Part shown: one piece after another, positions 1 to 23,081 of the stretch
Layout of the letters: each line of letters begins with the position of its first letter
How positions within the stretch are numbered: the stretch's first letter is position 1
Source of the DNA: a virus
Length of the DNA stretch: 25,268 bases
Direction: 5' to 3' (one strand)
IMG/VR virus record: IMGVR_UViG_3300009156_000078
Span: 1 to 25,268 of that record
Notes under the pieces: model-generated
The model's input: the letters and a program-made list of their open reading frames with translations, nothing else
The model's database searches: none
What the model was told of the DNA's origin: nothing
Program-made: the position numbers and the translations under genes

Positions 1-3000
1 CGTGTAGTCGACGGTCGGCGTCCGCACCGACGCCATGGCGGCGGATTCCACCAGTGGCGTCGGATGTGCGGTCGCGCCCTTGAGCCGGTTGACCGGGTGG
101 TAGGGGTCGAAGATCGCGTCGGAAAGCTCGGAAGTCTGGTCGCCGGCCGGGGTGTGGGCCTCGACGCGCTCTATTGCGTCGCGGGCTCCCTTGGTTCCAG
201 GCTCCGTGCCTCCCATCGTTCGAGGATCGCTTGGAGAAGGCGTTGGGCCGCCCTCGCCGGCGGCTGGTCCGGGTCGAGTTTCGCCAGAAGGTCGCGCCGG
301 CGCACTGCGTACTCCGCTTCCGGATCGGCCGCCTCCGCGTCCTCCGGATACTCCACCAGCCAGTCCTCCACCTCCTGGGCGGTCCACGGCGGGTTTCGCG
401 CCCACGCCAGCACCTGGTTCTCGATCTCCGGGCCGGTCCCCGGATTCTGGTCGAGGGCCCACAGGGCGAGGCTGGTCAGGGGCGGATACAGGCCGCTGTT
501 CCAGTCGCTCGGGAGGTGGCTTAGAGCCCTCTGGTTCGCCGGGGTACGGGTGCGGCTCTGCGGTCGGTCGGCCATTTCGGACTGTCTCCAAGGCGCTCAA
601 GAGCGCTGCGACACTGTCCACCTCGGCCAGAAGGGGGGCGGCGGGCAGTGTAGCACCTTCGCGCGGGTTGCGGTCAATCACGAGGAGGCGGGTGTCGAAG
701 CTGGTGCCGTATTTGGTGTAGATCTTCCCATCGACGGCGATGTTGGCGCGGACGGTGAAACCGCGCTTCTTCATGTCCTCCCAAAACTCCCGCCACGTCG
801 GCGCGCCCATGGTGGCGCCGCGGCCGACGATCGCCACCAGCCGGCCGCCGGGGACCAGGCGGCGGGCGGCCTCGGTGATGTGCCGCTGCGCCGTCTTGAG
901 GTCGATCTTGTCGCCGGTGCGCTGCGCATTGCGCGAGAACGGCGGGTTCATGACGACGACGGTCGGTCGCAACTGGTGGGGGCCGTAGATGTTGTTGAAC
1001 TGCTCGGCGTCCTCCTTGAACACGTAGCCCTGCGCCGGCGGGATCAGCTCCTCGAGTAAGGTGACGCGGCGATCGGCAAGCTCGTTGGCCATGATCTGGA
1101 CGCCTGGCCGCATGGCCGCGGCGACGATCGAGCCGGTGCCGGCGGAAGGTTCGAACAGCACGTCGTCGGCGGCGACGTTGGCGGCGTAGACCGCGGCCGC
1201 GGCGTAGTCGGGCGGGGTCGAGAACTGCTGGTATTCGGCCTGTTCCTCGCTGCGGACGGTCTGCGTCGGGAGCTTGTCGAGGAGGTGCTTGCGGATGGCG
1301 GTGGTCACCTCGATCGGGTTGTTCTGTTCGAGGCGGAAGGCGGCGGTGTCGCGGATGGTGAGGTTCACCGCCAGCTCCATCGCGTCGTAGACGTCCTTCC
1401 GGTCGTATTTGCCCTCGCCGCTGGTGCCGCCGTAGGCCTCGTTGGCGGCCCGGATCAGGCTGTCCGAGGAGAGCTTGACGTTGGAGCCGTAGACGTCGGC
1501 GAGCATGTCGGCGATGCGATGGGCGAGGACGACGTGCGGGCTTGCCGGCGTTGGCGGCCGAGCTGCAGGGGCGGGCGTTGGCTCGGGCGTCGGGGCGGGG
1601 CGCGGCCTGCGGTCCTCGATGTCGCGCAGCGCTGCCTCGTAGGCCTCGCGGCTGTCGTGCTGCACGATTTCGGTGCGGGCGGGGTAGCCGTCGCGGTCCC
1701 ATTCGAGGGTGAGCTTGTTGATCGAGCGGTGCGTCCCGGACGGGCTGACCCATGTCGGCACGCCCATGATGGTTTCGGAGACGCGATCGCCGGTCGGCGC
1801 GGGCGCGGGGCCGGCGCGGCGCACATAGAGCTCGTCGTGGCGGTCGAATTCCTTGATCGGCCCGCGGCGATCGTCGGTTTCGATCTGGACGCGGCCGCCG
1901 CGGACCACCGTGGGGCTGGCAAGGACGATGATCGGGGTGTCGTTGATGCCGAGCCACCAGTCGCCTTTGCGCAGCTCCTCGGCGGTGATCTTGACCGATG
2001 GCGACGAGAGGTCGGGCGCGGGTGCGGGCGCGGTCGGCGCTTCCTTCCAACCACCGGCGGCGGCCCATTCATAGCCGGCGACGAAAGCGGGCGGGTTTTC
2101 GCCGGTGAGTAGCTTGCCCTCCTGGAAGCGCCAAGCACCGGCGGCAAAGGCGCGCTGCTGCTCGTTGGCGCGCTGGTGGGCGCCGGTGACGCGCTCGCCG
2201 GGTTTGGCCGAGGGGTAGAGCGTGGCCGCGTGGGCGCGGGCCCGGTCGAACATTTCCTCGCGCGAAATCTCGGTCGGCGCGGGCGCGGGCGTCTCGGGCT
2301 CGGGTGCCGGCGGCGCGGTAACCGGGACCTTGCCGCCCTTCAGCATCGCCTCGATGTCGGCGCGCATGCCGGGGAGGTCGTGCGGCCGCGCCTGCTTGTG
2401 GCCGCGGGCGCTCCGGTTCGTCTCCATCATGTAGCGGGCGAACAGGCCGGCGAGCGATGAGGCGCGGCCTTTGAGCGTGTTGGCGACCTTGCCGAACGGG
2501 TTGTCGGGCTGCGTGCCGGCGCGGTCGTAGGTGAAGCCGAGCGCGTTGATCTGCTTCACCAGGTCCTTGATTTCGTCGTCGACGCGCCGATAGAGCGCCT
2601 GGTCCTCGTCGCTGGCCTCGTTCTGGAAGGTCGCCAAGCGGCTTTCGAGGTTGCTGTCGCCGGCCATGAAGCGGGCGACGCCGTAGTCGGCCGATTGGTC
2701 GGGGACGGCGGTCCGGGTGGTCCTCGGGTTGACCGCGGTCACGTCATAGGGCGGCACTTCGATGTCGTGGCCGCGATCGTCGCGGACCATGACGCTGATG
2801 ATGCCGCGATTGACCACCGTGCCGCGGATGGTGCCTTCGGACTTGGTGCCGCCGCTGCGCGGGACGGTGTAGCGGACGGCGTCGCCGACATGGAGTTCGT
2901 GCCCACCGGCGCCGGTGAGCGGGTGGCCGCGGGCGTCGCGGAGCACGCCGGTCGGGGCGCTCGGCGCTGGCGGGGCCGCTGGCGGCGGCTTGGGTGGCGT

Positions 3001-6000
3001 CGGTGGCGTCGGCGCTGACGGCGGCGCGAGCGGCGGCGCGGGACCACCGCCTTTCAGCTCGGCGGGGGTGTGGCTCTCGATCCAGGCGGCGAATTCGCCG
3101 GCGGTCATGTCGGTCGCCGGGTACTGGTTGGCGCCGATGTAGCGGTTGCCCTTGCCCGTCGCGCCGCGGCGGAATTGCACCAGGAGGATGGCGTTCTTGT
3201 CGGCGTCGAACCCGCCCTGCCACTGCACATTGACGGTGCCGTCGCCGCGGGCGAGCTGCATGTAAACCTCGCCCGACACCGCCTCACCGGCCTTGTTGAC
3301 GGTGACCGGCTCCTGCTTCTCCTCGCGCTCCTGGCCGCGCCGGCCCTTCTTGACGGTGACGCGGGTGTAGGGGGTGTCGTGCTCAAGGACGGCGGCGACC
3401 GCCGAGAGGTAGCGCTTGCCGTCGTTGAGGAAGCCGGCCTTGAGCTTGCCGTCCTGCTTGTGGCCGTCGATCGGCTCGTCGTAGGTGCCCTCGATGCGGA
3501 TGTTGCGCGATTTTTCGAGGCCTTTTGGTGCGGACGGCTTTGCCGCCGGTGCCTCGGGCTCCTCGGCCGGCGCTTCGCCTTCGGGCACGCCGACGATTTT
3601 CAGGCCTTCCTTGCTCGGCTGCAGATAGCCGTTCTTGGCGTAGATGAACCAGCCGCGATCGAGGCCGTAGATCTTCGCCCACGCGAGCAGTCCGTCCTCG
3701 TTGCGATGAAGGTCGAGGCCGTTCTGGACCGTGAGATTGATGCCGTAGTAGTGGCGGCCCTCATGGTTGATTTCGGCGATGTCGAAGCCGCGGCGCAGCG
3801 CGTCCTCGAGTATCGCGTCGGCCGGCCGCTCGAAGCCGATCGTTTCGAGGGCGCGGGCGGCGTTGGCGAGGCTGATACCTCCCTTCCGGCCAAGGTTTAC
3901 CTCGATGCCGCGGGCGATCGCCGCCGGCGACGTGAATTTGCGGGTGTCGAGGAGGGTGTCGATGCCGGCGTCGGTCGCGAGGTCGACGGCGTGGTGACAA
4001 GAGGCGAGGCCGGCGCGTGATCCTTCCTGGAATTCGATCACCGGCGTCATGCCGAGGGCTTTGACCACCTTCTGGACGAACGGCTCGACGATCAGGTCTT
4101 GGTGGCTGATGAGGAGTTGGGTGTCGTCCTCGGTGAGCTGCAGCGGGAAGCGGAACAGGCGCGAGTCGATGCGCGGGGCGGGGTCCTGGAACGTGCCCTG
4201 ATAGGGGTAGCTCAGACCGGCCGCGGTGAGCTTGTTGACGACGTCCTGGTGGCGGGCGTGCTTCCTGTCCCACTCGGCCTTCTGGCGCTCGGTTTCGGCG
4301 TCGAGCTGCTGCAGGCGGCCGCGGACCGCCTCCATGATCGAGGCGTAGGGCTCCTTGTCGCGCTGGCCGCGGGGCGGCTCGCCCCACGGCGCCGGCGACG
4401 ATGCCGGGTGGCTCATCATCGCGAACAGGTCGCGGAGCGGCTTCGGGTCGCCCTGCCACGCCTTCACCGATTCCGCGGTGAGGGTGGAGAAGTGCTGGTT
4501 GGCCTTCTGGTAGTTCGGGGTCGAGGCCTTGTTCTCGGCCGCCTTTTGCAGCCGCCTGGCCTTCGCCACCCATGCGTCGAGCGGGACGATCGCGGTGGGC
4601 TCGGCGGCGGGCTCGGCGGCGGGCTTGGCCTTCGGTCCTTGGCGGGCTTTCCGCGCCTCCTGGTCGAGGTAGACGTCGGTGAGCGCCTTCTGCTGGTCGG
4701 CGGTCAGGTTCCGCCATTTCTTGCGGGCCTGCTGCTTGGTGAAGTCGAGCTTGGCGAAGCGGGCGGCGTCATAGCGCTGCGTGTCGTCGAGTTCGTCGTC
4801 GTACCAGGTGCCGGCGCGGGCGGTGGCGAGGCGATCGGCGGAGGGGGGTTCGATCTCGCCGGGGTCCGACCACTGGACCTGAACGCTGTTCCCCTCGATC
4901 TGGACGTCGGCGAAGATCACCGCCTTGCGGTCCTGCGACCACAGCGCCCGGCCCTTGCCGTAGGGGCCAAGGGTCCACCCGCGCGACGCGGCGACGCGGC
5001 GGAACAGGTCAAGGTTGGTGGTCGGCGCGAGGGTAGCGTTCCACTCCTGGTCGGCGATGCGGCGCTCGACGTCGGCGAGGAAGTCGTCGACGGCCTGCTC
5101 CTCGTCCTCGGCGTCGAATTCGGCGGCGTCGGCCTTCTCCTCGTCGGTTGGCTCGTCGTCGTAGGGCTCGTCCTCCTCGGGACGCTCCTGCGTGATGTCG
5201 CCGTTTTCGTCGATGTAGCCGACCACCTCGGGCTGCTCGTCCTCGCCGGCGGGTTCGACGCGGCTGATTTCGCGGGGGTCGACAAACGCCCAATCGCCGC
5301 CGGTGATGATGTTGGCGCCGCCGGGAAAGAGGTGGAGCGGCCCGACCATGGTCACGGCGGTCATGCCGTCGCGGGCGATGCCGTAGCCGGGGAGGCGGAT
5401 GCGATCGCCGAGCTTGACGCCGGCCTTCTCCATTTCGGCGGCGTAGATGGCGTCGATCTTGGCGTCGACCGCCTGCTCGACGGCATGAATCGCGTCCTCG
5501 ATGCCGGCGACGCGCTTCACCTCGGCGTCGTAGCGGTCCTTGGCCTTCTGCTTGTCGGCCGCCTTGCCTTTCTTCGACGGCTCGGACGGCCGCTGTGTGT
5601 GGTCCTCGCGGATGTGCTTGAGGATGGTGTCAAAGGTCACCAGCCGCCGGTAGTCCTCGATCGACGGCGCGGTGATGGCGGCGACCGTCTCCTTGATGCC
5701 GGCCACCCACTTGAGCGGCCATTTGGTGTCGGCGCTCGGGAAGCCTACCAGCCGCCAGTCGGGGGCCTCGTAGTCGGCGTCGGCGGCCTCGATCAGGCGA
5801 TAGGCTGCGTGGTTGTGGTTCGAGGGCGGGGTGTTGGGCGGCTCGAATTCCCGCGCGGTTTCGGGCTCCTCGGCCTCCTCGGTTGCGGATTCGGGCTGTT
5901 TTTCGGATTCGGTTGCCTCGGGCTCCGAGATAGGTTCCTCGCGCTCCTCGCCGGCTTCGGGCTCGCGCTCCTCGGGCTCGGGTTGTATCTCCTCAGTTTG

Positions 6001-9000
6001 CGTTGCAGCGCCATGTGGCGCTCGCGAAACGGCTGGTTCCGGCCGTTCCTGTCCGTGAAGCGGGTTTTTCGTGTCGCCGGTGCGGGCCCATCCGACAAAC
6101 TCGGCCCACGTCAATTCGGTGGTCGGTCCCATGCCTTCGAACGATGACGGGTAGTGCGCCCCGTAGGCGTTCTCGGCCTCGTCCTGGTCGGCATATCCGA
6201 CCATGACCTTGTGCTCGTCGAACCCTTCCTGGTCGGCATCGATGTCGTGGTACTGGTCGATGACGAACACCGGCGCGTCGGGCGCGATGTCTGGGTCGGT
6301 GCCGGGTTTCAGGAAAAAGTCGAGGTGATCGCCGTCCGCGCCTTCGGTGCGGGGGAAGCGCCCGTAGTGGGCGAACATCGGCTGTTCCCACCGCTCGCCG
6401 CTCGGGCTGGTGCCGGTGCGGGTCGAGCCCTCCGGATTCTCCACGCGGCCTTGGAGCTGCATGCCCGGGGAGCCGATGGTGATGGGGCCGGTCTTGTAGT
6501 TTTCGGCCTTCTTCTGCGCGTCGGTCGGCTCGGGCAGGTCGTTCTCGGGCGAGGTGGCGGCCTGGTGGGCGTCGTCGTCGAGGCGATCGGCGTTCCGCTG
6601 CGCCTGCCACGCGCCGTAGTCCTGGTCGAGCTCCGCGCGCTCCTGCGGGTTCAGGCCGCGGACGTCCTCCATGGTGAGGCCGCGGGTGCGGAGGAATTCG
6701 GCCTGGTCCTGACGGGTCTGGTCGGCCAGGGCGGCGGTCTGGCCGAAGGTGCCGCGCTCGGGCCGCTCCGGGGCGCGGAATTCGCCGCTGCCGCCGTTGT
6801 CCTTGGCGCTGCGCTCGACGCGGCTGCGGTAGACGTCGGCGAGGACGTTCACCTCGGCGGTGCCGACGCCGAGCATGTCGGCGACGGTCTTGCGGACCTT
6901 GGCCAGCGCCTTGTCCATCCGCGCGCCGCCCATGCCGCCCTGCCGCGCGGTCTGGCGCTTCACGCCAAGGTCGTAGAGGGCGTGGCTGACGTCGTCGTCG
7001 AACAGCGCGGTCGCGCCGCCGACCTGGGCTTGGCGGGCTGGCGGCGCCGGCGGCACCGGCGAGGGGATGTCACCAGGCGGGCCGGCTTCGGGCCGCTCGG
7101 CCTTGCGCGCGGCCGCGGCGGCGTCGAGCTGCTGGTCGCGGATCTGCTTGAGGAAGTCGTAGCCGGCTTGCCGATCGTCGCTGCCGACCAGGCTGATGAC
7201 GGCGTCGCGGTGGACGTCGTAGGTGCTGCGGATGGTGCGGCCGTTCAACAGCGAGCGGGTGACGGTTTCGAGGGCAACGTCGGCGGGCGAGGCCGCCATG
7301 TCGGCGGCTTCGGTGTCGGGCGGCGGTGCTTCGTCGGTCGGTGGCGGCGCTTCGGCTTCGGCCTCGGCCTCGGTGTCGGGCTGCAGGAGGCCGATCGGGA
7401 CGGAGAGGATTTCGCCATCGTTGGCGTCGAGGTCGATGACGTCGGCGTTCTCGCCGGTTTCGTCGTAGCCGACGATCTGCGCGCGGAATGGCGCGTCCTC
7501 CATTTCCGGGAGGGTGACAATGACGTTTGTACCACTAGGCGGTAGTCCGGGTTTTGGCGGTGCGCGCGGGTCGACGCCGGCGACGATGCGGCCGGTGTCG
7601 GGGTCGATGTAGGTGGCACCAGGCGTGCCGCCGGTCGACGGCATGGCGCTGCCGGGGACGGGAATACCGCCGGCCTCCGCGGCCGCGGCCAGCGGTCCCT
7701 TCCGCCGCGGCGGCGGGGAAGGGGGAGGAGCTGGTGGCGGCTCGGGAGGGCCGGCGGCACCTTCGGGTGGTGGCACATCCGGACCGGGAGGGAGTGAACC
7801 CGGAGCCGGAGGAGGAGGCGGCGGCGGCGCTTCATCGCCAGCACCACCACCGCCGCGCCGACCACCGAAGATCTCGAACAGGGTTTGCGCGATGACGCCG
7901 ACGCCACCGCCGGCGGCCGCCGATTCCGGCAGGCCTTCGAGGATGGATTGGTCCTCGTTGTAGGTCTGCTCGATGGCGTTCTGCAGCGCCTCCTGGCCGC
8001 CTTCTTGGAACGCCTCAATCAGGCCTTGGCCGCCGATCCGGCCGAACAGTCGGGCGATCGGGCCGCGGAACGGCTGCGGCACCTTGAGCACGCCGAGCAG
8101 GGTTTCCATCGGGACGATGTCGGTCGCGCCCGGACCAGCGCCCATCAGGCCGGCGGCGGCAATCTCCTCCTCGGTGAGCCCGCGCCGGCCGGCGGCTTGT
8201 TCGGATTCCGACCATTCGGCGGCGCGGTCGATCGCTTCGCCGACGCCGGCGCCGATGAACCATGAGCCGGCGATGCCCTGGCCGCCGGGGATTGGCAGGG
8301 TGGCGAGGCCGACCACCAGCGAGCCGAGGCCTTCGGACACGACGCGGGTCGGGCCGCCCTCCCATCCGGGCGACGGGCCGAGGGTGGTGTCGATGCCCTT
8401 CTTGAGCGCCTGGCTCCACTGCCAGAGCTTGCGATCGGCGAGCGGGGTGGGCTTCGGGTAATACTGGTCGAGCAGCTCGGGCGTCATGGTGCCCGACTGC
8501 ATTTCGTCGATCAGGCCGCTGATGAAATCCCGGTCGGCGCTGTCCTCGAACATGGCGTTGACGTCGGAGCGGAAGGCTTCCAGCTCCTCCGGGGTCATGG
8601 TGGTGACGCGCGATAGCTCGTCGCGGACCTGCTCGACCGCCTCGCCACCGAACGGGGTCAGGCCGGCGATGGCCTCCATGCCGAACTGCACCATCCGCTC
8701 GGCGCCGGCGGCGAGGCCGGTGGCGGCTTCGGTGAAGAAGTTGGAGCCGTTCTCCTCCTGCCACTGCTTCTGCCAGCGTTCGACCTGTTCCGGCGTGCCG
8801 TAGACCATGCCGTTTTCGTCGGGCTCGGGCATGCGGCGGCCGCCGCGGCCGCCACCGCCGAGCGTGTCGGGTGGCGCGCCGGTGCCGCCGACCAGGCTCA
8901 AGTCGCCGCCGTTGTTGGCGAGGAAGTCGGAGAATTGCGCGACGTAGCGCTGGCCGGTGGTGCCGTGGATGTCCTTGGCGGCGGCGGACTCGGGGTTGAT

Positions 9001-10050
9001 CGGGCGGCCGGTGAACCAGACCGACGCGGCCTGCTCGGGGCTCCCGTACTGGTCGATCATGCCGCCGAATTTGGCGTCGAAAATGCGGTCCTGCAGTTTC
9101 GGTTTGGCTAGGAATTCCTCCTCCGTCACCTCGCGGCCGAGCACCTGGCGCGACCACTCGGGGAGGTTCGAGCGCATGATCTGGTATTTGCCGAGCGCCT
9201 GGTCGCCGTTGCCAAGCCGCTCGCCGCGCGCCGAGTAGGGGTGCGCCTCGCCGCTCGACTCGATGTCGGCGATCGCCGCGCGGTAGAGGAGCATGCGGTT
9301 GGAATTCTGCAGCGGCCGGGTGTCGCCGGAACCGGCGCTGCCAGCGAGGCCGCGGTCGAAGTCGGCGAGGAACGCCAGTTCGTCGGGATCTTCGAAGTTG
9401 CGACCACCGGAGGCGCGATCGGTCGCGCCCTTGTAGCCCCACACTGCCGGCGGGCGGTCCCTGCCGCCGACGCCGATGTGGAGCGAGCCGTTGCCGAGGT
9501 AGCCTTCGCCGAACGAGTAGAGGCCGAAGCGGTTGGCGCCGGCGGCGGCGCCGAGGCGGGCGAGCTGCACGCGCTGCGCCGGGGTCCAGAGGGTGCCGTC
9601 CGCGTTGTAGCCCTTCAGGTCAAGCTCGGTGCCGCCGGCGTGGCTCTTGTGGCCGCCGCCCTTGGCTGCGGTGACCACCAGGTTGGCGATGCCGAACTGG
9701 TCGGCCTGGCTCGCCATGGCGTCGAGGATCGAGGTGGCCTGCGGGGTGAGGCCTTTGAGGCTGGTGCGGTCGGCGATGTTGGCCGACACCGCGACACCGG
9801 TCGGCGTGGTGTAGAGCAGCGAGCCGATCGGCTTCATCGTCTGGATCGGGGTGGCCGGCTCCTCGAGTTCGGCCGACTCCGTCGCCGGCGCGCCGGTGAG
9901 GTCGACGTCCGGGGTGACGCCAACCCTTACTCGAGGGATGGCGGTTTTCGGCCCGCCGAGGCCGAACGCGGCGTCAAGCTCGGCCTGGCGCTGTTGCGCC
10001 ATGGCCTCGTCGGGCGAGATGCCGAATCCACCGAAGTCGAGCAGCGCCAA
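1..10050 (-). CDS. Giant polyvalent protein: M15-like peptidase, transglycosylase, pyrophosphatase-like, DarB-type methyltransferase, strawberry-notch lead-in (partial)
   Basis: I read the frame triplet by triplet and found no stop in 3350 codons; the protein continues past the left edge. A TAG lies two codons upstream, so translation starts at TTG 10050 or later; TTG has AAGGGGGG before it. Domains by residue: about 90-197 M15-like peptidase (SHAGGTELD with H137 and D144, then LHIG with H191); 250-347 lysozyme-like transglycosylase (IESSGE, E264; GKYQIM); 571-730 Gly-rich, partly hydrophobic; 740-785 Pro-rich; 1185-1310 inorganic-pyrophosphatase-like (DGDHLD, D1239/D1241/D1244; FDEHKVM); 1350-1411 very acidic; 2940-3130 N6-adenine methyltransferase (FEPSAGTGS 2966-2974, NPPF 3035-3038); 3329-3350 HPTPLVESAAMASV, the segment that precedes strawberry-notch helicases. 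Large stretches between have no domain I recognise. By family knowledge this is a polyvalent, DarB-like protein. Ejection with the DNA, wall digestion and anti-restriction are inferences. Confidence 0.9.
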   Translation of the reverse strand, partial: MALLDFGGFGISPDEAMAQQRQAELDAAFGLGGPKTAIPRVRVGVTPDVDLTGAPATESAELEEPATPIQTMKPIGSLLYTTPTGVAVSANIADRTSLKGLTPQATSILDAMASQADQFGIANLVVTAAKGGGHKSHAGGTELDLKGYNADGTLWTPAQRVQLARLGAAAGANRFGLYSFGEGYLGNGSLHIGVGGRDRPPAVWGYKGATDRASGGRNFEDPDELAFLADFDRGLAGSAGSGDTRPLQNSNRMLLYRAAIADIESSGEAHPYSARGERLGNGDQALGKYQIMRSNLPEWSRQVLGREVTEEEFLAKPKLQDRIFDAKFGGMIDQYGSPEQAASVWFTGRPINPESAAAKDIHGTTGQRYVAQFSDFLANNGGDLSLVGGTGAPPDTLGGGGRGGRRMPEPDENGMVYGTPEQVERWQKQWQEENGSNFFTEAATGLAAGAERMVQFGMEAIAGLTPFGGEAVEQVRDELSRVTTMTPEELEAFRSDVNAMFEDSADRDFISGLIDEMQSGTMTPELLDQYYPKPTPLADRKLWQWSQALKKGIDTTLGPSPGWEGGPTRVVSEGLGSLVVGLATLPIPGGQGIAGSWFIGAGVGEAIDRAAEWSESEQAAGRRGLTEEEIAAAGLMGAGPGATDIVPMETLLGVLKVPQPFRGPIARLFGRIGGQGLIEAFQEGGQEALQNAIEQTYNEDQSILEGLPESAAAGGGVGVIAQTLFEIFGGRRGGGGAGDEAPPPPPPPAPGSLPPGPDVPPPEGAAGPPEPPPAPPPSPPPRRKGPLAAAAEAGGIPVPGSAMPSTGGTPGATYIDPDTGRIVAGVDPRAPPKPGLPPSGTNVIVTLPEMEDAPFRAQIVGYDETGENADVIDLDANDGEILSVPIGLLQPDTEAEAEAEAPPPTDEAPPPDTEAADMAASPADVALETVTRSLLNGRTIRSTYDVHRDAVISLVGSDDRQAGYDFLKQIRDQQLDAAAAARKAERPEAGPPGDIPSPVPPAPPARQAQVGGATALFDDDVSHALYDLGVKRQTARQGGMGGARMDKALAKVRKTVADMLGVGTAEVNVLADVYRSRVERSAKDNGGSGEFRAPERPERGTFGQTAALADQTRQDQAEFLRTRGLTMEDVRGLNPQERAELDQDYGAWQAQRNADRLDDDAHQAATSPENDLPEPTDAQKKAENYKTGPITIGSPGMQLQGRVENPEGSTRTGTSPSGERWEQPMFAHYGRFPRTEGADGDHLDFFLKPGTDPDIAPDAPVFVIDQYHDIDADQEGFDEHKVMVGYADQDEAENAYGAHYPSSFEGMGPTTELTWAEFVGWARTGDTKNPLHGQERPEPAVSRAPHGAATQTEEIQPEPEEREPEAGEEREEPISEPEATESEKQPESATEEAEEPETAREFEPPNTPPSNHNHAAYRLIEAADADYEAPDWRLVGFPSADTKWPLKWVAGIKETVAAITAPSIEDYRRLVTFDTILKHIREDHTQRPSEPSKKGKAADKQKAKDRYDAEVKRVAGIEDAIHAVEQAVDAKIDAIYAAEMEKAGVKLGDRIRLPGYGIARDGMTAVTMVGPLHLFPGGANIITGGDWAFVDPREISRVEPAGEDEQPEVVGYIDENGDITQERPEEDEPYDDEPTDEEKADAAEFDAEDEEQAVDDFLADVERRIADQEWNATLAPTTNLDLFRRVAASRGWTLGPYGKGRALWSQDRKAVIFADVQIEGNSVQVQWSDPGEIEPPSADRLATARAGTWYDDELDDTQRYDAARFAKLDFTKQQARKKWRNLTADQQKALTDVYLDQEARKARQGPKAKPAAEPAAEPTAIVPLDAWVAKARRLQKAAENKASTPNYQKANQHFSTLTAESVKAWQGDPKPLRDLFAMMSHPASSPAPWGEPPRGQRDKEPYASIMEAVRGRLQQLDAETERQKAEWDRKHARHQDVVNKLTAAGLSYPYQGTFQDPAPRIDSRLFRFPLQLTEDDTQLLISHQDLIVEPFVQKVVKALGMTPVIEFQEGSRAGLASCHHAVDLATDAGIDTLLDTRKFTSPAAIARGIEVNLGRKGGISLANAARALETIGFERPADAILEDALRRGFDIAEINHEGRHYYGINLTVQNGLDLHRNEDGLLAWAKIYGLDRGWFIYAKNGYLQPSKEGLKIVGVPEGEAPAEEPEAPAAKPSAPKGLEKSRNIRIEGTYDEPIDGHKQDGKLKAGFLNDGKRYLSAVAAVLEHDTPYTRVTVKKGRRGQEREEKQEPVTVNKAGEAVSGEVYMQLARGDGTVNVQWQGGFDADKNAILLVQFRRGATGKGNRYIGANQYPATDMTAGEFAAWIESHTPAELKGGGPAPPLAPPSAPTPPTPPKPPPAAPPAPSAPTGVLRDARGHPLTGAGGHELHVGDAVRYTVPRSGGTKSEGTIRGTVVNRGIISVMVRDDRGHDIEVPPYDVTAVNPRTTRTAVPDQSADYGVARFMAGDSNLESRLATFQNEASDEDQALYRRVDDEIKDLVKQINALGFTYDRAGTQPDNPFGKVANTLKGRASSLAGLFARYMMETNRSARGHKQARPHDLPGMRADIEAMLKGGKVPVTAPPAPEPETPAPAPTEISREEMFDRARAHAATLYPSAKPGERVTGAHQRANEQQRAFAAGAWRFQEGKLLTGENPPAFVAGYEWAAAGGWKEAPTAPAPAPDLSSPSVKITAEELRKGDWWLGINDTPIIVLASPTVVRGGRVQIETDDRRGPIKEFDRHDELYVRRAGPAPAPTGDRVSETIMGVPTWVSPSGTHRSINKLTLEWDRDGYPARTEIVQHDSREAYEAALRDIEDRRPRPAPTPEPTPAPAARPPTPASPHVVLAHRIADMLADVYGSNVKLSSDSLIRAANEAYGGTSGEGKYDRKDVYDAMELAVNLTIRDTAAFRLEQNNPIEVTTAIRKHLLDKLPTQTVRSEEQAEYQQFSTPPDYAAAAVYAANVAADDVLFEPSAGTGSIVAAAMRPGVQIMANELADRRVTLLEELIPPAQGYVFKEDAEQFNNIYGPHQLRPTVVVMNPPFSRNAQRTGDKIDLKTAQRHITEAARRLVPGGRLVAIVGRGATMGAPTWREFWEDMKKRGFTVRANIAVDGKIYTKYGTSFDTRLLVIDRNPREGATLPAAPLLAEVDSVAALLSALETVRNGRPTAEPHPYPGEPEGSKPPPERLEQRPVSAPDQPRPVGPRPESGDRPGDREPGAGVGAKPAVDRPGGGGLAGGVSGGRGGGRSGSGVRSAPARPSGETRPGPAAGEGGPTPSPSDPRTMGGTEPGTKGARDAIERVEAHTPAGDQTSELSDAIFDPYHPVNRLKGATAHPTPLVESAAMASVRTPTVDYT

Positions 10051-10057
10051 GCCCTAT

Positions 10058-10065
10058 CCCCCCTT
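10058..10065 (-). promoter_or_regulatory. Ribosome binding site that decides the TTG start of the giant gene
   Basis: The minus strand reads AAGGGGGG seven bases before TTG 10050. It overlaps the TGA stop (10065-10067) of the upstream Pro/Arg-rich gene, so the two genes are probably translationally coupled. The in-frame TAG at 10054-10056 rules out any earlier start. The first in-frame ATG is codon 17 and has no comparable site. Confidence 0.7.
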
Positions 10066-11075
10066 CAGTCGACGACGTCGTACCGATGCTTGTTGCGCCG
10101 GGTGATGTCGTCGATTTCCTTCCGGCGCGGGCTGTCGGCCGGGAGACGATAATATTCATCGTAGAGCTTTTTGAGCTGTGCTCTCGACAACGGCGCCTGC
10201 GCCTGTGGACGATATTGCGGGGCGCGGAACAGGGACTCGGCGCCGCTGCGACCAGGTGCCGGCCGAGCTGCAGGGGCGGCGGGTTTTGGCGTCGGCCGCG
10301 GCCGTGGCGTCGGCTGTGGCTTGGCGGTCGGGTTGGGCCTCGCGCCGACCACCACCACCGGCGTCTTGACCGCGGGCCTGACCGGCATCGAGACGGCTTT
10401 CACAATCTCGTCACCGCGCGAGCGGGGTGGACGGACGCGGGGCGTCGGGACGCGGATGCCGTCGCTGGTGGCGATGTCGGTCGGCCGCGGGCGCGGCGTC
10501 GGCGGCTGCTGCTGGCCGAACGGGTCGCGGGGGTTGGTCGAGGTCACCACGCGCTTCGGGCCGGGGTTGCGGGGATTCGGCGGGTTGGCCGGCTTGACGG
10601 CGCGGCCGTCGCGGGTGTCGGTCGGCCGCGGCCGCGGATCGGGCACGGTGACGCCGCCGGCGGTGGCGGCGGGGGCGCGGGTGGTCGGTGTGCCGCGGTC
10701 GCCCTTCGGACCAGGCACCGAGGCCGCGGTCTTGACCGCCGGCGTGGGGCTGTCGGTCGCGGCGATGCGGGATTGATCCTTCGCCGTGGCGCTGGCGCTG
10801 GCCGTAGCCTTCGGCACGGGCCGGGAGGGGGGATTGGGCACGTTGACCGCTCCCGCCTCGCCAGTGGCGACCTTTGGCCTTGGGCGGGGCGAAGGAACGG
10901 CGACGCGGCCACCGCCATCGCTTGAGCCGGCGATCCGGACCACCTTCTTCTTTGGTCGGTTGCCGACGTCGCGGGTCGAGACGGCGAGCCCGCCGCCACC
11001 GCTGGTCTGCGGCAGAGGGTCCTCGCCGGGGACGAAAACGGGCCGCCTCAAGAAGCGGCCGAGCCCGATAGCCAT
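10065..11075 (-). CDS. Pro/Arg-rich, mostly disordered phage protein (probable virion protein)
   Basis: A 336-residue protein with no recognised catalytic domain. After a short N-terminus (MAIGLGRFLRRP), residues of about 50-270 are low-complexity and rich in Pro, Arg, Thr and Ala. They carry repeated variants of P-x-P-R-P-R-P (for example PSPRPRP, PDPRPRPTD, PTPRPRPTD, PTPRVRP, PTPRPRPTPKP). The last 50 or so residues look like a small charged helical domain (SRAQLKKLYDEYY, RRKEIDDITRRNKHRY). The start is an ATG with AGGAGG seven bases upstream. The gene sits between the 477-residue protein (11 nt gap) and the giant gene (14 nt gap). The strong positive charge would suit DNA or membrane contact, and the position suits an ejected internal virion protein. 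Both are inferences; the function is unknown. Confidence 0.8.
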   Translation of the reverse strand: MAIGLGRFLRRPVFVPGEDPLPQTSGGGGLAVSTRDVGNRPKKKVVRIAGSSDGGGRVAVPSPRPRPKVATGEAGAVNVPNPPSRPVPKATASASATAKDQSRIAATDSPTPAVKTAASVPGPKGDRGTPTTRAPAATAGGVTVPDPRPRPTDTRDGRAVKPANPPNPRNPGPKRVVTSTNPRDPFGQQQPPTPRPRPTDIATSDGIRVPTPRVRPPRSRGDEIVKAVSMPVRPAVKTPVVVVGARPNPTAKPQPTPRPRPTPKPAAPAARPAPGRSGAESLFRAPQYRPQAQAPLSRAQLKKLYDEYYRLPADSPRRKEIDDITRRNKHRYDVVD

Positions 11076-11086
11076 GGGTGATCCTC

Positions 11087-12520
11087 CTATGCGGCGTTGC
11101 GGGAGCTGCGGATCTGCGACGCGAGTTGCTGGTACTCAGGCGAGCCCGGTTTCATGCGGGATAGCTCGGCCGCCATGCGGCGGATAACGGCCTTGGACGC
11201 GATTGGCGGGGCCGCCGCCGGCGCGCGGGCCGGGGCGGGCGCGGCGACGGGTGCGACCTGGGGCGCGGCCGCGGCGGGTGCCACGCCCGGATACTGCTCG
11301 GCGAAGGACGAGGCCGGGGCGACGCTGCCGGTGATCTGGCCGGTGATGCCGACGACGCCGCGCGAGGCCTCCGGCTGGCGCTGCCTGACCGGCTGGCGGT
11401 CGCCCTTGCTGGCGGTCGCCGACGGTCCTGCGGCGCGTTGGCCGCCGAGGCCGACGTCGTTGCCCTTGCCGCCGGCGAGGCGGTCCTGGCCGGCGCCACC
11501 GGTGAGGCGGTCGCCCTTCTCGATGGTGGTGGTGCCGGTACCGGGGGCGGGAGTGGCACCAGGCGTCGGCGGTTCGGGCGAGCCGCGCGGGGTCGGCGCT
11601 GGCGCGGCCTCCGCTTGATCGATGTCGGTCACCTCGCCGGTCTTGGTGTTGAAGGCCTTGGTTGGCGACGGCCGCGCCGGCTTGTCGCCGCGGGGCGGCT
11701 TCTGTCCCATGCCGCGGAGGATTTCGTTGGTGCGCTGCTCGATCGCCCGCTGCTGCTTCTTGGCCTTGAGGTCCATGAAATTCATGTCGGCCTGCAGTTC
11801 CTCAAGCGCCTGGCTGCGGGCCTTGTCGTAGTTCTCGGCGCGCTTCGATTCCTTCGAGCCCGGCCCTGAGATGCCGAGCTGCACGTCGATCTCCTTTTCG
11901 CGGCGATACTGGTCGATCTCGCCCTCGGTGGTCGCCGCGGCCTTCTGCTGCTCGTTCCAGCGCTCGAACGCGGCCTCCGGGTTGAAGAAGGTCGAGCCGA
12001 AGGAAAGCACCTCCTCGGGGCTGGTGAAGGTCTGCGCCAGTTTCCGCCCGTTCGGGGCGTCGAAATTGATGGTGATCGAGCCGTCGTCGTTGTGAGTCAG
12101 GTTGCCAAGGTCGAGGTCCTTGCCGTAGCCGCGGAGGTTGCCGGCCTTGATGAAATTCCTAAGCGCGCCCTCGGTGTCGCCGGCCTGGGCTTTGACGATG
12201 CCATCGGCAAACAGCTTCGAGCCGTCGCGGGCGGCGTCGGATTCCGCCCATTCGCGCCACGCCTCGGCGCTCTCCATGTCGCCCTGTGACAGGAACTCCT
12301 GCGTCTTTTTGGGGACGATGAAATCCCGGTAGAAATCGTCGAAGGTTCCGGGCTTGCCGGCGGCCTCGTACTCGCCGGTTGCCGCCTTGTCGATGCGGGC
12401 GATGGCCTTGCGATTCCGCATGCGGTCGATCGCCGAGGCGTCGTTCTCGACACCGGTCCAGTTGACGCCCGACTGCAGGCCGCGGGCGAGGCCACTTGCG
12501 AAGGAACCAGCGCCAGCCAT
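11087..12520 (-). CDS. Probable internal virion protein, 477 aa, with two RTX-like nonapeptides
   Basis: The family is not recognised. The N-terminal 280 residues are charged and predicted helical (GLARGLQSGVNW near the start; long Lys/Glu/Gln helices at about 200-280). Residues 285-450 are Pro/Ala/Gly-rich linker. Within the linker, residues 341-349 (GGAGQDRLA) and 350-356 (GGKGNDV) fit the RTX calcium-binding pattern GGxGxDxLx. A VVGITG string near residue 390 resembles the tail shared by two small head proteins. The last 35 residues form another helical piece (RRMAAELSRMKPGSPEY). The neighbouring 502-residue protein ends only 10 nt upstream, and the Pro/Arg-rich gene follows. Position between the tail genes and the giant protein suggests an ejected internal protein; that is inference. 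Confidence 0.8.
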   Translation of the reverse strand: MAGAGSFASGLARGLQSGVNWTGVENDASAIDRMRNRKAIARIDKAATGEYEAAGKPGTFDDFYRDFIVPKKTQEFLSQGDMESAEAWREWAESDAARDGSKLFADGIVKAQAGDTEGALRNFIKAGNLRGYGKDLDLGNLTHNDDGSITINFDAPNGRKLAQTFTSPEEVLSFGSTFFNPEAAFERWNEQQKAAATTEGEIDQYRREKEIDVQLGISGPGSKESKRAENYDKARSQALEELQADMNFMDLKAKKQQRAIEQRTNEILRGMGQKPPRGDKPARPSPTKAFNTKTGEVTDIDQAEAAPAPTPRGSPEPPTPGATPAPGTGTTTIEKGDRLTGGAGQDRLAGGKGNDVGLGGQRAAGPSATASKGDRQPVRQRQPEASRGVVGITGQITGSVAPASSFAEQYPGVAPAAAAPQVAPVAAPAPARAPAAAPPIASKAVIRRMAAELSRMKPGSPEYQQLASQIRSSRNAA

Positions 12521-12530
12521 GGTTTTCTCC

Positions 12531-14039
12531 TCACGCTGCTTGCGCGAATTCGCCCGGTCCCGGCCGCGGCTGCGGCTGTGCCGGGGGCTTGGCCTTGTTG
12601 ATGCGATTCCGCGCGCCGATGCCGACCACGCGGCCGATCTCGTCGACCTTCGACGCGAGGTCTTGGATGGCCTTCATCGAGATGCCGATCGCGTCGACGA
12701 TGGGGATCGTCTCGCCGTTGCCGATGCCGGTCTGCGCTTCGACGTCCTGGGCCATGGCGCCGATGTGGCGCTCGCCGCCGTCGTCGGCGGGTGAGCCTTC
12801 CTTGTATTGCCACTCGCCGATCGGCAGCTCCTCGATGGCGTCGAGCGCTTCGCCCTCGGGGACGTCCTCGAAGCCTTCCTTCTGCTTCTCGTCCGACATG
12901 ACCAGCGGCAGGGCGGTCTGGATCGCCTGGCCGGCGAGCTGACCCCATCCGGCCATTTCGGAGGCCTGCATCTGCTCGCGCTGCAGGTCGGCCTGGGTGT
13001 CGATGTTGTACTTTTCGAGCTCGCGGCCCCATCCGGCGTCGTAGAGGTTGCCGGCCTGTCCGGTGGCGCTGATTGCGCCGGTGAAGCCGGGGTAGCGGAG
13101 CTGCGCCGCGTCGAGGGTTCCGGCCTGCAGGAGGCGTTCGGAGTCCATTTCCTGCGCGCGGTCGGTGATGTCGCGGGTGAGGCCGAGGCGATCGGCGTCG
13201 CCGAGGATGCCGGCGGCCGAGGTTCCCCCTGCCAGTGCGCCGGTAAAACCCTGGCCGGCGATGCCGGGGGTCTGCATCCACGCCTGGTTGGCTCCTGCCA
13301 CCGCACCGATGCCGGTCTGGCCGGCGGCGGTGGCGCGGTTCTGGATGTTGCCGCCCATGTTGATGGCGGCGAGGCGCTTCTGCTCGGCCTCGTCGCGGAC
13401 GTCGCCGCGGGCCGCGTTCATGGCGTCGGTGCGACCGAGCGCGGTGCCGAGGCCCAAGGCGCGATCGACGCCCGCGTAGGCACCGGAATCGGGGCGCACG
13501 CCGCGGGCGGCCATGGCGCGCTGGCTGGCGTCACGCTGAATTCCGGCTTGGCTCTCGACGTCGGCGGCGGCGGCCGCGGCGCGATCGGCCTGGCGGCCCT
13601 CGCTGTCCCACGTTGACGCTTCTTCGACGAAACGGTCCTCGAGTGGCTGGAATTTCTCCTTGTAGCGGTTCTGCTCGTCGGTCGCGAACTGCATCTGCTG
13701 TTCGGCGAACGGGTTGACCATCGCGTCGAGGGCGTCCTGACGGTCCTGCGAGACTTGCCACTGGCCTTGGGCGAATTCGAGCCAATCCTGCCCGAGCTGG
13801 TTCTGCTGGAGCGCGATGCGCTGCGTCTCCGTCTCCGGCGCTGCGCCGGCGGCGAGGCCTTGGCTCAACGGGTGTTCGTTGAGGTAGTCGTCGATGCGCT
13901 CGTTCGAGGCCTTGAGGGCCTGGTTGACCTTGTGTTTGACGTTCTTGGTGTGCTTCAGGAATTTGTTCCCGAGGCGCTGCGAGCGTCGTGCGGTGCGGTT
14001 GAGCTGCCGCGCGTAGCGTCTGTTGGGTTGCTTGGCCAT
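12531..14039 (-). CDS. Virion protein with C-terminal S74 self-cleaving chaperone domain
   Basis: A 502-residue protein. The first 45 residues are strongly basic (MAKQPNRRYARQLNR), followed by Gln/Glu-rich helices to about 170 and an Ala/Gly-rich middle. From residue 380 it matches the peptidase S74 intramolecular chaperone: SDEKQKEGF, then GEWQYK, HIGAMAQDVEA and a closing helix ISMKAIQDLASKV. In this family cleavage occurs before the Ser of SDxxxK using a Ser/Lys pair; S382 and K387 have the right spacing. Cleavage would release a C-terminal fragment of about 121 residues after it helps trimer assembly. S74 domains usually end fibres or spikes, but nothing here looks like a fibre shaft. The protein may be a tail-tip or ejected internal protein. 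The gene starts 3 nt after the 107-residue gene. Confidence 0.85.
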   Translation of the reverse strand: MAKQPNRRYARQLNRTARRSQRLGNKFLKHTKNVKHKVNQALKASNERIDDYLNEHPLSQGLAAGAAPETETQRIALQQNQLGQDWLEFAQGQWQVSQDRQDALDAMVNPFAEQQMQFATDEQNRYKEKFQPLEDRFVEEASTWDSEGRQADRAAAAAADVESQAGIQRDASQRAMAARGVRPDSGAYAGVDRALGLGTALGRTDAMNAARGDVRDEAEQKRLAAINMGGNIQNRATAAGQTGIGAVAGANQAWMQTPGIAGQGFTGALAGGTSAAGILGDADRLGLTRDITDRAQEMDSERLLQAGTLDAAQLRYPGFTGAISATGQAGNLYDAGWGRELEKYNIDTQADLQREQMQASEMAGWGQLAGQAIQTALPLVMSDEKQKEGFEDVPEGEALDAIEELPIGEWQYKEGSPADDGGERHIGAMAQDVEAQTGIGNGETIPIVDAIGISMKAIQDLASKVDEIGRVVGIGARNRINKAKPPAQPQPRPGPGEFAQAA

Positions 14040-14042
14040 GGC

Positions 14043-14366
14043 TCACTCTCCCGTCGTGCGCGCCCCGCCGCGGACCAGGATGGCGCTCTGCACCGAGCCG
14101 AGGGCCCGGTAGAGCGCCGCGACCTGGGCGGACAGGGCGTTGAAGTCGGCCGCGGTCGGCGCGGCGCTGACCACCAGGCCGGTCGGCGGGGTGATGAGCG
14201 GCGCGAGGCCGCGCAAGTCCTCCAGGCGGACGGCGGCCTTCGGCATTGCCTGCTTCGAGCGCGAGCCGTCGAGGACGTGCAGGATCTCGTTGTCCTTCTC
14301 GGTGAAGGCGGTTCGCGTCTCGGGTGAGCCGGTGACGCCGGGGGCGGGGATGTTCCGGTTGAGCAT
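14043..14366 (-). CDS. Small phage structural-module protein, 107 aa
   Basis: The family is not recognised. The start ATG overlaps the stop of the preceding nozzle-like gene as TGATG, so it is almost certainly read by coupled translation; the frame stays open upstream, but only inside that gene. The protein begins MLNRNIPAPGVTGSPETRT, has a charged helix (FTEKDNEILHVLDG), a Pro-rich turn (LITPPTGLVV), and a hydrophobic helix (ADFNALSAQVAALYRALGSV) that could form a coiled coil. Its place between the tail-nozzle-like gene and the S74-domain gene suggests a minor virion or assembly protein. Confidence 0.75.
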   Translation of the reverse strand: MLNRNIPAPGVTGSPETRTAFTEKDNEILHVLDGSRSKQAMPKAAVRLEDLRGLAPLITPPTGLVVSAAPTAADFNALSAQVAALYRALGSVQSAILVRGGARTTGE

Positions 14367-16132
14367 CACGCGGCCTGTGCCTGTTTGATTTCGTCGACGG
14401 TCCTCGCCATCGTGATCTTGTCGATGGGGACGTCGGCAAAGACGTCGAGCGCCCACTTGCGGCCGAGGAAGCCGGACGGGAGCCGTTCGACGCGGTCGCG
14501 CTTGCCGATGGTGGCGACCTTGACGTCGTTGCAGTAGACGCCGAGCGAGAAGGTGCCGCCGGCGCCGGCGGGGATCGGCAGGAGGTTGTCGCCGGCGAAC
14601 ACGTCGTTGTTGATCGACTGGCTGTTGATCGAGCCGGTGACGGTGCCGGCGGTAATCATCGCCTGGTTCTGGGCGATGATGGCGGCGACCACCGACTGCT
14701 TGGCGGCGGCCTCAAGCTCGCTGAAACCCTCGCCGCTCTCGACCAGGATGCAGCCAAAGTTGTCGTCGATCGGCATGTAGTAGTCCTTCGACCGCCAGTA
14801 ATAGATCGCCGGCGCGCCCTGCTCGGGGTCGAAGCGGCGGACGTTCTTGCCGTCCGGGTCGAGGTAGAACAGGTCGCCCGAGGGGACGTCGAAGTACCAG
14901 CTCCGGGCGATGATCTTGCTGCGGATGAGGTAGGCGACGTCGCCGGCGGGGTCGATGATGATCGAGCCGGATTTTGGCTCGTCGGTGATCGGGTCGACGC
15001 CGTCGAAGGAGGCGATCCACCGGCCGTGATACTGGCCGGCGCGCATGGCGGCCGGGTTGAGCGCTCGCCAGTCGCGCGGGTTGAACAGGTTATCCGACAC
15101 CAGCCCCACCTCGCCGCTCGACTTGGCGATCGCCAGCCCGTCCGGGGCGGCCCACGCGATGGCGTAGCCGAGGTCGACGATGCCGTAGGACGAGACGCCG
15201 GGGAGGTTGGTTTCGATCTTCGACATTGACATCGAGGCCGGTTCGGTGCCGGCGGCGCGCCACGGCTGGCCCTTGGTGATGACGACGAGCTGCACGTCCA
15301 TGGCGCCGAGGCCGACGATCTCGGCTTCGACGGTCTGGGCGTACACCTCCGGCCAAGCGTGCGGGAGGTAGGGTTCGCAGAAGTAGAGCGTCTTGCCGAC
15401 AAAGCCGGCCATCATGCCGTTGGGGAGCGCGGTGAGGCCGAGGAGGCCGGCCGGCGGCGGGTTATAGGTCCGCGACGGCAGGCGCTCGGCGAATTGCGTG
15501 ACCGGGATGTTGTCGACGAAATTGGCGGCGGAGGCGGCGCGCTCGGCGATGAAATAGAGGTCGGTGCCGGCGGTGCCGGTCTGCGTCCGGTAGAAGCGCT
15601 GCAGCGTGATGTTGCGGCCACCAGGCGGGGCGAGGATGCCCGAGAGGGTGACGGTGATGCCGGTCTGCCAGTTGATCGGGTCCGAGATGGGCGAGGGCTC
15701 GGACTCCTCTCCGAAGGCGGTGACGTAGGTGTAGACGTAGTTGCGGACGGTGACGTCGCCGGATCCTGCTCCGGAGGGCGTCAGGGTGGGCTTGGTGGTC
15801 GGGGCGGGGACGGCGAGGTCGTAGGTGGTGCCGCCGACGATCATCTTGGGCGGCTGGCCGACCTGGGTGACGTAGAGCCGATCGTCGGCGACCGGGCCCG
15901 GTACGGCCCACGCCTGGGTCGCCCATCCGAGCCATGTGGTGCCGTGCTTGTAGATCGACTGGTAGTTCGGCGTGCCGGGGAAGGTGTGCTCGATTTCGGG
16001 CACACTGAACGGGGTGAGGCCGCCGTCGTCCATGCGGAGCTCGACGGCGTCGGCGGCGGCGTGCGGGGGCAGGAGCCGGTTGATGATCCGGGGCTGCTCG
16101 CCGGTGAACCCTGTGATGGTGATGATGCTCAT
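14366..16132 (-). CDS. Tail-nozzle-like (tail tubular protein B-like) structural protein
   Basis: A 588-residue, beta-rich protein. The N-terminus (GEQPRIINRLLPPHAAADAV, then LRMDDGGLTPFSVP) resembles the opening of podovirus tail nozzle proteins, where a short strand-rich segment about gene products and their contributions precedes a propeller-like body. A fibronectin-like stretch at about 110-215 (NYVYTYVTAFGEESEPSPIS) is typical of these proteins. Later blade-like segments include GLVSDNLFNPRDW, SWYFDVPSGDLFYLDPDG and APAIYYWRSKDYY. The gene starts within the fibre stop (ATGA, 4 nt overlap) and its own stop overlaps the next start. A nozzle or stabilisation-ring role at the tail end is inferred from these features and gene order; no catalytic motif is seen. 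Confidence 0.7.
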   Translation of the reverse strand: MSIITITGFTGEQPRIINRLLPPHAAADAVELRMDDGGLTPFSVPEIEHTFPGTPNYQSIYKHGTTWLGWATQAWAVPGPVADDRLYVTQVGQPPKMIVGGTTYDLAVPAPTTKPTLTPSGAGSGDVTVRNYVYTYVTAFGEESEPSPISDPINWQTGITVTLSGILAPPGGRNITLQRFYRTQTGTAGTDLYFIAERAASAANFVDNIPVTQFAERLPSRTYNPPPAGLLGLTALPNGMMAGFVGKTLYFCEPYLPHAWPEVYAQTVEAEIVGLGAMDVQLVVITKGQPWRAAGTEPASMSMSKIETNLPGVSSYGIVDLGYAIAWAAPDGLAIAKSSGEVGLVSDNLFNPRDWRALNPAAMRAGQYHGRWIASFDGVDPITDEPKSGSIIIDPAGDVAYLIRSKIIARSWYFDVPSGDLFYLDPDGKNVRRFDPEQGAPAIYYWRSKDYYMPIDDNFGCILVESGEGFSELEAAAKQSVVAAIIAQNQAMITAGTVTGSINSQSINNDVFAGDNLLPIPAGAGGTFSLGVYCNDVKVATIGKRDRVERLPSGFLGRKWALDVFADVPIDKITMARTVDEIKQAQAA

Positions 16133-21980: not shown

Positions 21981-23081
21981 CTACGGCGCGTTCGGGTCCT
22001 TGGCGTAGGTGTCGATCGCGATCACCCCGAAGTCGCGGTTCCGGAACCGGGTCTTTTTGGTCCCCATGATGGTGCCGGCCGCGATGTCGACCTGGTTCTC
22101 GAAGTCGGTCAGCTCCTCCTTCCACTGCATCCGCATGCCGCCGCTGGTGCCGTAGGCGGCGACGCCGGCCTGGCGTGCGAGGAGGAGGGCGCGGGCCGCC
22201 GGGAGGTTGACGGTTGCGCCGTAGTCCGAGAACCGGATCACCGACTCGTGGGAGTGCAGCACGGCATTGTTAATCATGCCGAGGTTGCCCTTGAAGATCG
22301 GGTTGCTCTTGCCCTCCGCGGCCGCTGCGGCCTTCTGGATGTCGAGCCATGAGCCCGGCGAGACGGAGGTCCGCATCTGGTACTCCTGGAAGGGCACCAT
22401 GACGACGACGAAATGCGGCTCGCCGTTGATCGAGACGGGCAGCATGTTCGGGTTTTCCGGGTTGGTCGCCCGGATCATGGTGGCCTTGACCAGCACCCGC
22501 TCGATGGTCTGGACGCTCATCACGTCGGCGGTGGTGACGTTGTTCTTGGCGGTCGCGGTGCCGCCGTAGACCAGGTGGTCGGTGTCGGGCGCCTGAATGG
22601 CGTTGCCGGCGTGGCCGACCCACGTCACGTCCTCGATGAAGTCCTCGTTGATGCCGCGCGCCCCGGACAGGTAGATGAACATCATCTCGTCGAGGAAGCG
22701 GGCCCAATAGTCGCCGAGGCGGTCGCGGGCGACGCTGCGGAGGTCGTGGAGGGTGCGCTTGCGGGTCATGCGGCCGCCAGCCGACACGGGGGCCCGCATC
22801 TGGTCGATCATGACCTGGTCGGTCGCAAATTTCAGGTCCTCGCTCTTACCCTGGGCGCGGTCGTCGCCGTAGATCGGGCGCTTCCGGAGCTGCAGGGAGA
22901 GGTCGAAACTGATGGTATCGCCGGCGGCACTGTCGAGGTCAGTCAACCGCTGAATAAAGCTGTTGTCTGTAGTGCCAATGAACTTGCGCTCGAAGTAAGC
23001 CTTCTTCGCGGTATCGATGAAAAGCTCGGCAGACCAGCGCTTGACGGCTTTGGGATCGCCAACAGGAATCGTGGTGTCCAT
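21981..23081 (-). CDS. Major capsid protein, N4-gp56 family
   Basis: A 366-residue protein of the length usual for the family. Hallmarks in order: AVKRWSAELFIDTAKKAYFE, FIGTTDNSFIQRLTDLDSAA, GDTISFDLSLQLRKRPIYGD, then LRSVARDRLGDYWARFLDEM with FIYLSGARG. Further on come ERVLVKATMIRA, VVVMVPFQEYQMRT, NPIFKGNLGMINNAVLHSHE, ARALLLARQAG and KKTRFRNRDFGVIAIDTYA. By family knowledge these form the HK97-fold shell of the phage head. It follows portal and scaffolding genes, as expected. The start ATG 23081 has GGAG nine bases upstream, but that site lies inside a strong hairpin (23083-23130), so translation may be controlled. Confidence 0.95.
   Translation of the reverse strand: MDTTIPVGDPKAVKRWSAELFIDTAKKAYFERKFIGTTDNSFIQRLTDLDSAAGDTISFDLSLQLRKRPIYGDDRAQGKSEDLKFATDQVMIDQMRAPVSAGGRMTRKRTLHDLRSVARDRLGDYWARFLDEMMFIYLSGARGINEDFIEDVTWVGHAGNAIQAPDTDHLVYGGTATAKNNVTTADVMSVQTIERVLVKATMIRATNPENPNMLPVSINGEPHFVVVMVPFQEYQMRTSVSPGSWLDIQKAAAAAEGKSNPIFKGNLGMINNAVLHSHESVIRFSDYGATVNLPAARALLLARQAGVAAYGTSGGMRMQWKEELTDFENQVDIAAGTIMGTKKTRFRNRDFGVIAIDTYAKDPNAP

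Follow-up and report, generated by a model that had tools for sequence, protein, structure and literature searches.

The window analysed here, the whole of IMG/VR virus record IMGVR_UViG_3300009156_000078, is a linear virus fragment of 25,268 bases that ends at base 1. It encodes a giant protein which we read, with a probability of roughly 0.8, as a DarB-like polyvalent ejection protein from a podovirus akin to POI1126, Atu_ph08 and Bcep22. The protein probably travels with the phage DNA, opens the cell wall and methylates the DNA against restriction. The nearest relatives of the phage are located in Hyphomicrobiales and other Alphaproteobacteria. The features of the window are listed in Table 1.

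Table 1. Features of the giant gene and of neighbouring genes in the window (residues are numbered in the giant protein).
Feature	Position	Strand	Details
Giant polyvalent ORF	1..10050	minus	3350 codons inside the window, 3' end past the contig edge
Strawberry-notch helicase (AAA_34) lead-in and first residues (putative)	1..129	minus	residues 3308-3350
Pro/Gly-rich linker, 123 residues	202..570	minus	residues 3161-3283, methyltransferase to helicase
DarB-type DNA adenine methyltransferase (predicted) with N-terminal helical cap	571..1533	minus	residues 2840-3160
InPase domain (PF18823)	6085..6522	minus	residues 1177-1322; DGDHLD (1239), FDEHK (1277)
Short conserved module	6763..7011	minus	residues 1014-1096; also in POI1126, Atu_ph08, PBC5, G004, G005
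Gly/Ala-rich amphipathic to hydrophobic stretch	7891..8373	minus	residues 560-720
Lytic transglycosylase (LT) / lysozyme-like domain (predicted)	8896..9303	minus	residues 250-385; catalytic E264 (IESSG), GKYQIM
M15-type (LAS) peptidase domain (predicted)	9451..9780	minus	residues 91-200; alignment, structure model, Foldseek
Giant start region (putative)	10048..10065	minus	TTG 10050-10048; AAGGGGGG 10065-10058, seven bases upstream; in-frame TAG 10056-10054
336-aa Pro-rich protein	10065..11075	minus	no cysteine; candidate virion or ejection protein
477-aa virion structural protein (phrog_9667)	11087..12520	minus	no cysteine
502-aa virion structural protein (phrog_8003) with S74 chaperone	12531..14039	minus	no cysteine
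588-aa virion protein	14366..16132	minus	phrog_511 'internal virion protein'; syntenic with POI1126 gp21
Major capsid protein, N4-gp56 family	21981..23081	minus	TIGR04387, E=1.3e-71
P22-type portal protein, C-terminal part	24564..25268	minus	-

The giant ORF runs without a stop from the TTG codon down to base 1. The longest stop-to-stop frame expected by chance, taken from 30 simulated 25-kb sequences of the same dinucleotide content, was 699 aa. GC content at codon positions 1, 2 and 3 is 0.71, 0.51 and 0.875 over the whole ORF, with position 3 ranking first in each block of 250 codons; the ORF is therefore coding throughout. The original prediction of one stop-free frame over 10,050 bases is thus confirmed. 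The TTG is the probable start codon and is taken as close to correct because AAGGGGGG and an in-frame TAG stand just before it; the alternative is an ATG 16 codons downstream. Since the record is a linear fragment ending at base 1, the gene lacks its 3' end. In six related giants (L183, L184, L187-L190) 1981-2391 residues follow the aligned segment, so a full protein of about 5300-5750 aa is expected, of which some 2000-2400 residues would be absent here. The size of over 4500 residues that had been proposed is by this estimate a conservative figure. No near relative of the giant protein was found in a scan of viral contigs with the protein as query. A contig of the same or a sister phage (L005, 99.3% DNA identity) is situated right of the window, and the nearest long host contig (L103) has no match to the N-terminal region of the giant.

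Pfam reported no model above threshold for either of the two N-terminal domains, the M15-type peptidase and the LT, and alignments of both regions were therefore built. The M15 alignment consists of nine rows, the window giant and eight homologues from viral contigs. H134, H137, D144 and H191 are identical in all of them, and the zinc ligands (H137, D144 and H191) stand in the H-x6-D...H pattern of M15 peptidases. In the LT domain, the catalytic glutamate E264 of the E-S motif is present in every alignment row covering that position. Residues 250-385 also have matches in Rhizobiales phage tape-measure proteins and in over 90 viral ORFs. The hydrolase region was modelled with AlphaFold2 on 18 sequences (mean pLDDT 86). 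In Foldseek searches against the PDB, the M15 fold matched MepA, LysECD7, LysB4, the RB49 endolysin and ChiX with moderate E values (0.004-0.2), and the LT fold matched a GH23 chitinase, Slt and Cj0843 (E 0.003-0.04, Foldseek probability about 1.0), likewise with moderate statistics. A search of a viral model library matched the region to LT_GEWL and 'Peptidase M15A' proteins. By zinc ligands, catalytic glutamate and fold matches, the two domains are predicted M15 and LT enzymes. The same pair is also found in L224/L279 and L277. In two further contigs (L273 14281-14360, L278 14571-14680) an M15-bearing gene stands directly before another large gene that starts from an ATG of its own, which suggests fission or fusion of the giant.

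Further along the chain, the InPase model is matched over nearly its full length with E=1.5e-36, and the acidic motifs DGD.LD and FDEHK are kept. This region is 34-49% identical to that of the POI1126, Atu_ph08 and PBC5 giants. Searches with Pfam gave nothing credible for residues 400-760 and 1400-2830. The Gly/Ala-rich stretch at residues 560-720, of which residues 593-710 are common to the giant of contig G008, is a candidate envelope-contacting segment. Pro/Ala/Glu-rich linker makes up about 17% of the chain. The sequence HEGRH at residue 2096 was considered as a zincin motif and rejected, as it lacks the usual context.

The methyltransferase carries the TP motif FSTPP (2943), EPSAGTG (2967) and NPPFS (3035). 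FSTP and NPPFS are invariant across 10 viral sequences, and EPSAGTG is invariant or nearly so. The model of the domain reached a pTM of 0.84, and in fold it corresponds to type I/IIG modification subunits, EcoKI and PacII among them. With its TP motif and NPPF it is a predicted EcoKI/TaqI-like N6-adenine methyltransferase. An Erm37 function, indicated by an NCBIfam match, was dropped as its score was far under the cut-off. Residues 3308-3350 align to the start of AAA_34 in the six giants mentioned above and more weakly with G028, so that six complete methylase-helicase dyads and one with an open 3' end enter the alignment. In L183, L187, L188 and G028 a Pfam search confirmed the AAA_34 domain itself. 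The window holds the first 20 or so residues of AAA_34, and the helicase assignment stands on about 42 residues. The two peptidoglycan-type hydrolases, the pyrophosphatase-like domain, the DarB-type N6-adenine methyltransferase and the strawberry-notch lead-in that had been read from the DNA by eye of a model are all recovered by these analyses, as is the N4-gp56 capsid.

The giant gene closes the head/tail module of a podovirus with an N4-gp56 capsid, and the capsid, portal, tail and virion genes lie just upstream on the same strand. Gene order up to the giant is that of POI1126, in which gp30, a DarB-like giant, takes the equal position. A giant ORF (3261-5165 aa) is present in each of the eight additional long contigs examined that encode a related capsid. 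Capsid relatives in genomes come chiefly from Hyphomicrobiales and other Proteobacteria. Beside the giant, three adjacent virion-type proteins of 336, 477 and 502 aa (10065-14039) have no cysteine in 1315 residues; they are possible partner ejection proteins. The 477-aa protein contains a weak RTX/hemolysin-type calcium-binding repeat (GGAGQDRLAGGKGNDVGLGG), which scored below the cut-off. A tail-fibre protein (16129-17664) has a long repetitive C-terminal region rich in His, Gly and Thr (HTHTGG..., HSHGN..., HTHPV). Two related structural proteins, phrog_437 and phrog_399, are encoded in tandem (18930-19559 and 19980-20678). They perhaps resemble the paired tubeA genes described in Bcep22-like phages (PMC10386132).

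The giant contains a single cysteine (C2018) in 3350 residues, compared with 0.50% in its neighbours (p about 1e-6). In 26 related giants 23 cysteines were counted among 108,945 residues and 14 of the 26 have none; these counts were mostly made on stop-to-stop frames, and some of the 23 may precede the true starts. To set enzyme type apart from delivery, homologous methylase-helicase segments were compared, which hold 1 cysteine in 8705 residues in seven phage giants versus 40 in 8688 in eight plasmid proteins (Fisher p 2e-11, a value overstated by the non-independence of the sequences). One plasmid homologue is without cysteine in the matched segment. It is a 2547-aa methylase/strawberry-notch protein of a Methylotuvimicrobium plasmid (L284, 0 in 1098 matched residues). 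In its lack of cysteine it differs from the plasmid proteins that stand alone, and it may be a transferred protein itself. Among known ejected proteins, cysteine is absent from those of N4 (vRNAP, 3500 residues; gp51, 644; gp52, 150) and from gp15 (747) and gp16 (1318) of T7, while T7 gp13 and gp14 have some. P1 DarB has 9 in 2255 residues, and cysteine depletion is thus no rule for DarB itself. As the capsid and portal of the window also lack cysteine, the depletion is compatible with ejection and no proof of it; the composition of the giant supports a virion role. For N4-like RNA polymerases, the absence of cysteine and the injection argument have already been published (PMC3915230). In a limited literature search we found no such statement for DarB-type giants. 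Our comparison carries the N4 observation over to these giants, with the plasmid dyads as homologous control, and opens the ejection model to tests in coliphages.

From its relatives and its composition, we infer that the giant is delivered into the host with the DNA. It would be made late, packed in the head and released by way of the tail, its small domains strung along a flexible chain. At the N-terminus, the M15 peptidase and LT would cut a local hole in the peptidoglycan, as does T7 gp16-N, whose transglycosylase leads through this layer (PMC8954989). The methyltransferase-helicase dyad would enter the cytoplasm with the DNA and methylate adenines along the genome as it comes in, an action that has been proposed for P1 DarB. 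The InPase domain probably removes pyrophosphate or a nucleotide signal. The best reading thus combines the leading transglycosylase of T7 gp16, the chain of N4 vRNAP and the methylation of incoming DNA by P1 DarB. An ejected protein that opens the wall and shields the DNA had been suggested in the original prediction, and this idea is well supported: gene position, structure models, the known relatives and the low cysteine content all speak for it. A more specific version, to which we give somewhat less than even odds, is that a single chain of about 5500 residues, left unprocessed, traverses the entire envelope with the wall cutters ahead and the DNA-modifying enzymes at the rear. Cysteine loss would then have been selected because the chain, partly unfolded, passes the oxidising periplasm. 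If this is true, the absence of cysteine would be a mark of podovirus ejection proteins readable from sequence, which could be used on unannotated phage genomes.

Cleavage of the giant as a polyprotein would give a different picture. Once packed, it might be split, either inside the head or while entering the cell, to give hydrolase, InPase and methylase-helicase pieces, perhaps by a zincin in the missing C-terminal part, and such processing of polyvalent proteins has been proposed (Iyer et al., 2017; PMC5512222). Several relatives have an HExxH motif in their C-terminal half (HEAFH in POI1126 and G020, HEMFH in G016, HELGHH in L184), and in L273 and L278 the M15 part has a gene to itself, after which a further gene begins at an ATG of its own. 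However, no convincing zincin was found in the 3350 residues present, and L187, L183, L189 and Atu_ph08 contain no HExxH at all. We consider processing unlikely, though it deserves more weight than the two alternatives that follow.

Lysis genes separate from the giant lie after it in both POI1126 and JC1, the JC1 homologue occurs in virions, and LT domains homologous to that of the giant are contained in tape-measure proteins. These observations make it very improbable that the hydrolase domains act in lysis at the end of infection or that the protein is a late intracellular enzyme with no part in the virion, even though endolysins too may carry M15 and LT domains and the InPase region matches phrog_938, which bears the label endolysin. 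Still less credit is due to an artefact, in which an assembly or base-calling error masks a stop or fuses two genes: the coding signal is even along all blocks of the ORF, and the domain order matches that of unbroken relatives of 3.2-5.7 thousand residues on independent contigs, against which stand the published PBC5 giant, broken into two overlapping frames, and the two genes in place of one in L273 and L278. A DarB-like ejection protein remains the preferred reading.

Such giants differ in their N-termini. A leader of the form V-A/P-x-N-x-F-x-x-[STN]-P is present in the first 40 or so residues of the JC1 giant (L280) and of L096, L097, L098, L293, L294 and L295, with examples such as VPKNLFLQSP, VAENLFLKSP and VAKNSFLQSP. 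It is a candidate capsid-targeting signal. A second leader type, MPIVIGLGD...NDPLNLYGG, is shared by the giants of Atu_ph08, G004 and G005. Neither type was seen at the N-terminus of the window giant.

POI1126 gp30 and Atu_ph08 gp21 (4841-4877 aa, the latter 4877 aa) and the PBC5 giant share with the window giant an N-terminal pair of wall hydrolases, InPase and a DNA methylase, and have an SF2 helicase, which is putative in the window giant. Pfam identified Hydrolase_2, M15, InPase, an Eco57I-type methylase, an SNF2-type helicase and LPD39 in POI1126 gp30 and Atu_ph08 gp21. In its published description, Atu_ph08 gp21 has a cell wall hydrolase, then a peptidase, and in addition a methylase and a helicase; it was likened to Bcep22 (PMC6630229). 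The hydrolases of the POI1126/Atu_ph08/PBC5 group are Hydrolase_2 (SleB type) and M15, whereas the window giant has M15 and LT. The helicase of that group is of the SNF2/ResIII type with LPD39 in contrast to the putative strawberry-notch helicase of the window giant, and the methylase of the window giant is closer to that of other giants (G028, L187). In the Lessievirus phages, Bcep22 gp75, JC1 gp69 and CSP3 orf43 (about 4500-4600 aa) likewise follow the structural genes and are described with an N-terminal LT, a methylase and a helicase. They differ in that the helicase is of HepA type (PMC10269572 and PMC9144972 for CSP3 and JC1), and the passages describing them report one wall hydrolase and do not mention InPase. 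None of them figures in the sequence matches listed for the window. JC1 gp69, which has no cysteine, was detected in purified virions with 51 unique peptides and a score second to the capsid (PMC9144972). The combination of domains, which the original prediction had suggested to be unusual, is therefore already known in similar form from Atu_ph08 gp21 and POI1126 gp30, and from JC1 gp69 and CSP3 orf43 as well.

Iyer et al. (2017) named this class polyvalent proteins and described InPase, lysozyme and DD-peptidase domains in it, with strawberry-notch in few cases (PMC5512222). The window giant has two traits of the class: it unites disparate predicted activities in one chain and lies beside late/structural genes. 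Delivery into the host with the DNA, a third trait, is probable from its relatives and composition. P1 DarB has the dyad of adenine methylase and helicase that is predicted for the window giant, is packed in the head and protects DNA in cis. Its packaging depends on the N-terminal 30 residues (PMC9024508), and it requires DarA, DdrB, Hdf and Ulx. Unlike the window giant, it is a 2255-aa protein of a myovirus with 9 cysteines and no reported wall hydrolase. T7 gp16 is a cysteine-free ejected protein with an N-terminal transglycosylase like that of the window giant, but it has 1318 aa and lacks methylase, helicase and InPase. The N4 virion RNA polymerase gp50, an ejected giant with a beads-on-a-string arrangement (PMC12633501), resembles the window giant as a cysteine-free multi-domain chain of a podovirus, but is an RNA polymerase without wall hydrolase or methylase. 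Plasmid methylase/strawberry-notch proteins have a homologous dyad (37-55% identical to the L187 giant); unlike the giants they are mostly of about 1460 aa, stand alone and have a normal cysteine content.

This family of the largest phage proteins is widespread and little tested. The window giant adds to it the shuffled architecture M15, LT, InPase, methylase and putative strawberry-notch helicase, in which the slots for wall cutters and helicase subtype are exchangeable while the overall plan is kept. Because such proteins are described in the literature on Atu_ph08, CSP3/JC1 and P1 DarB and by Iyer et al., it is no new kind of system but a further, domain-shuffled member of the known DarB-like giants.
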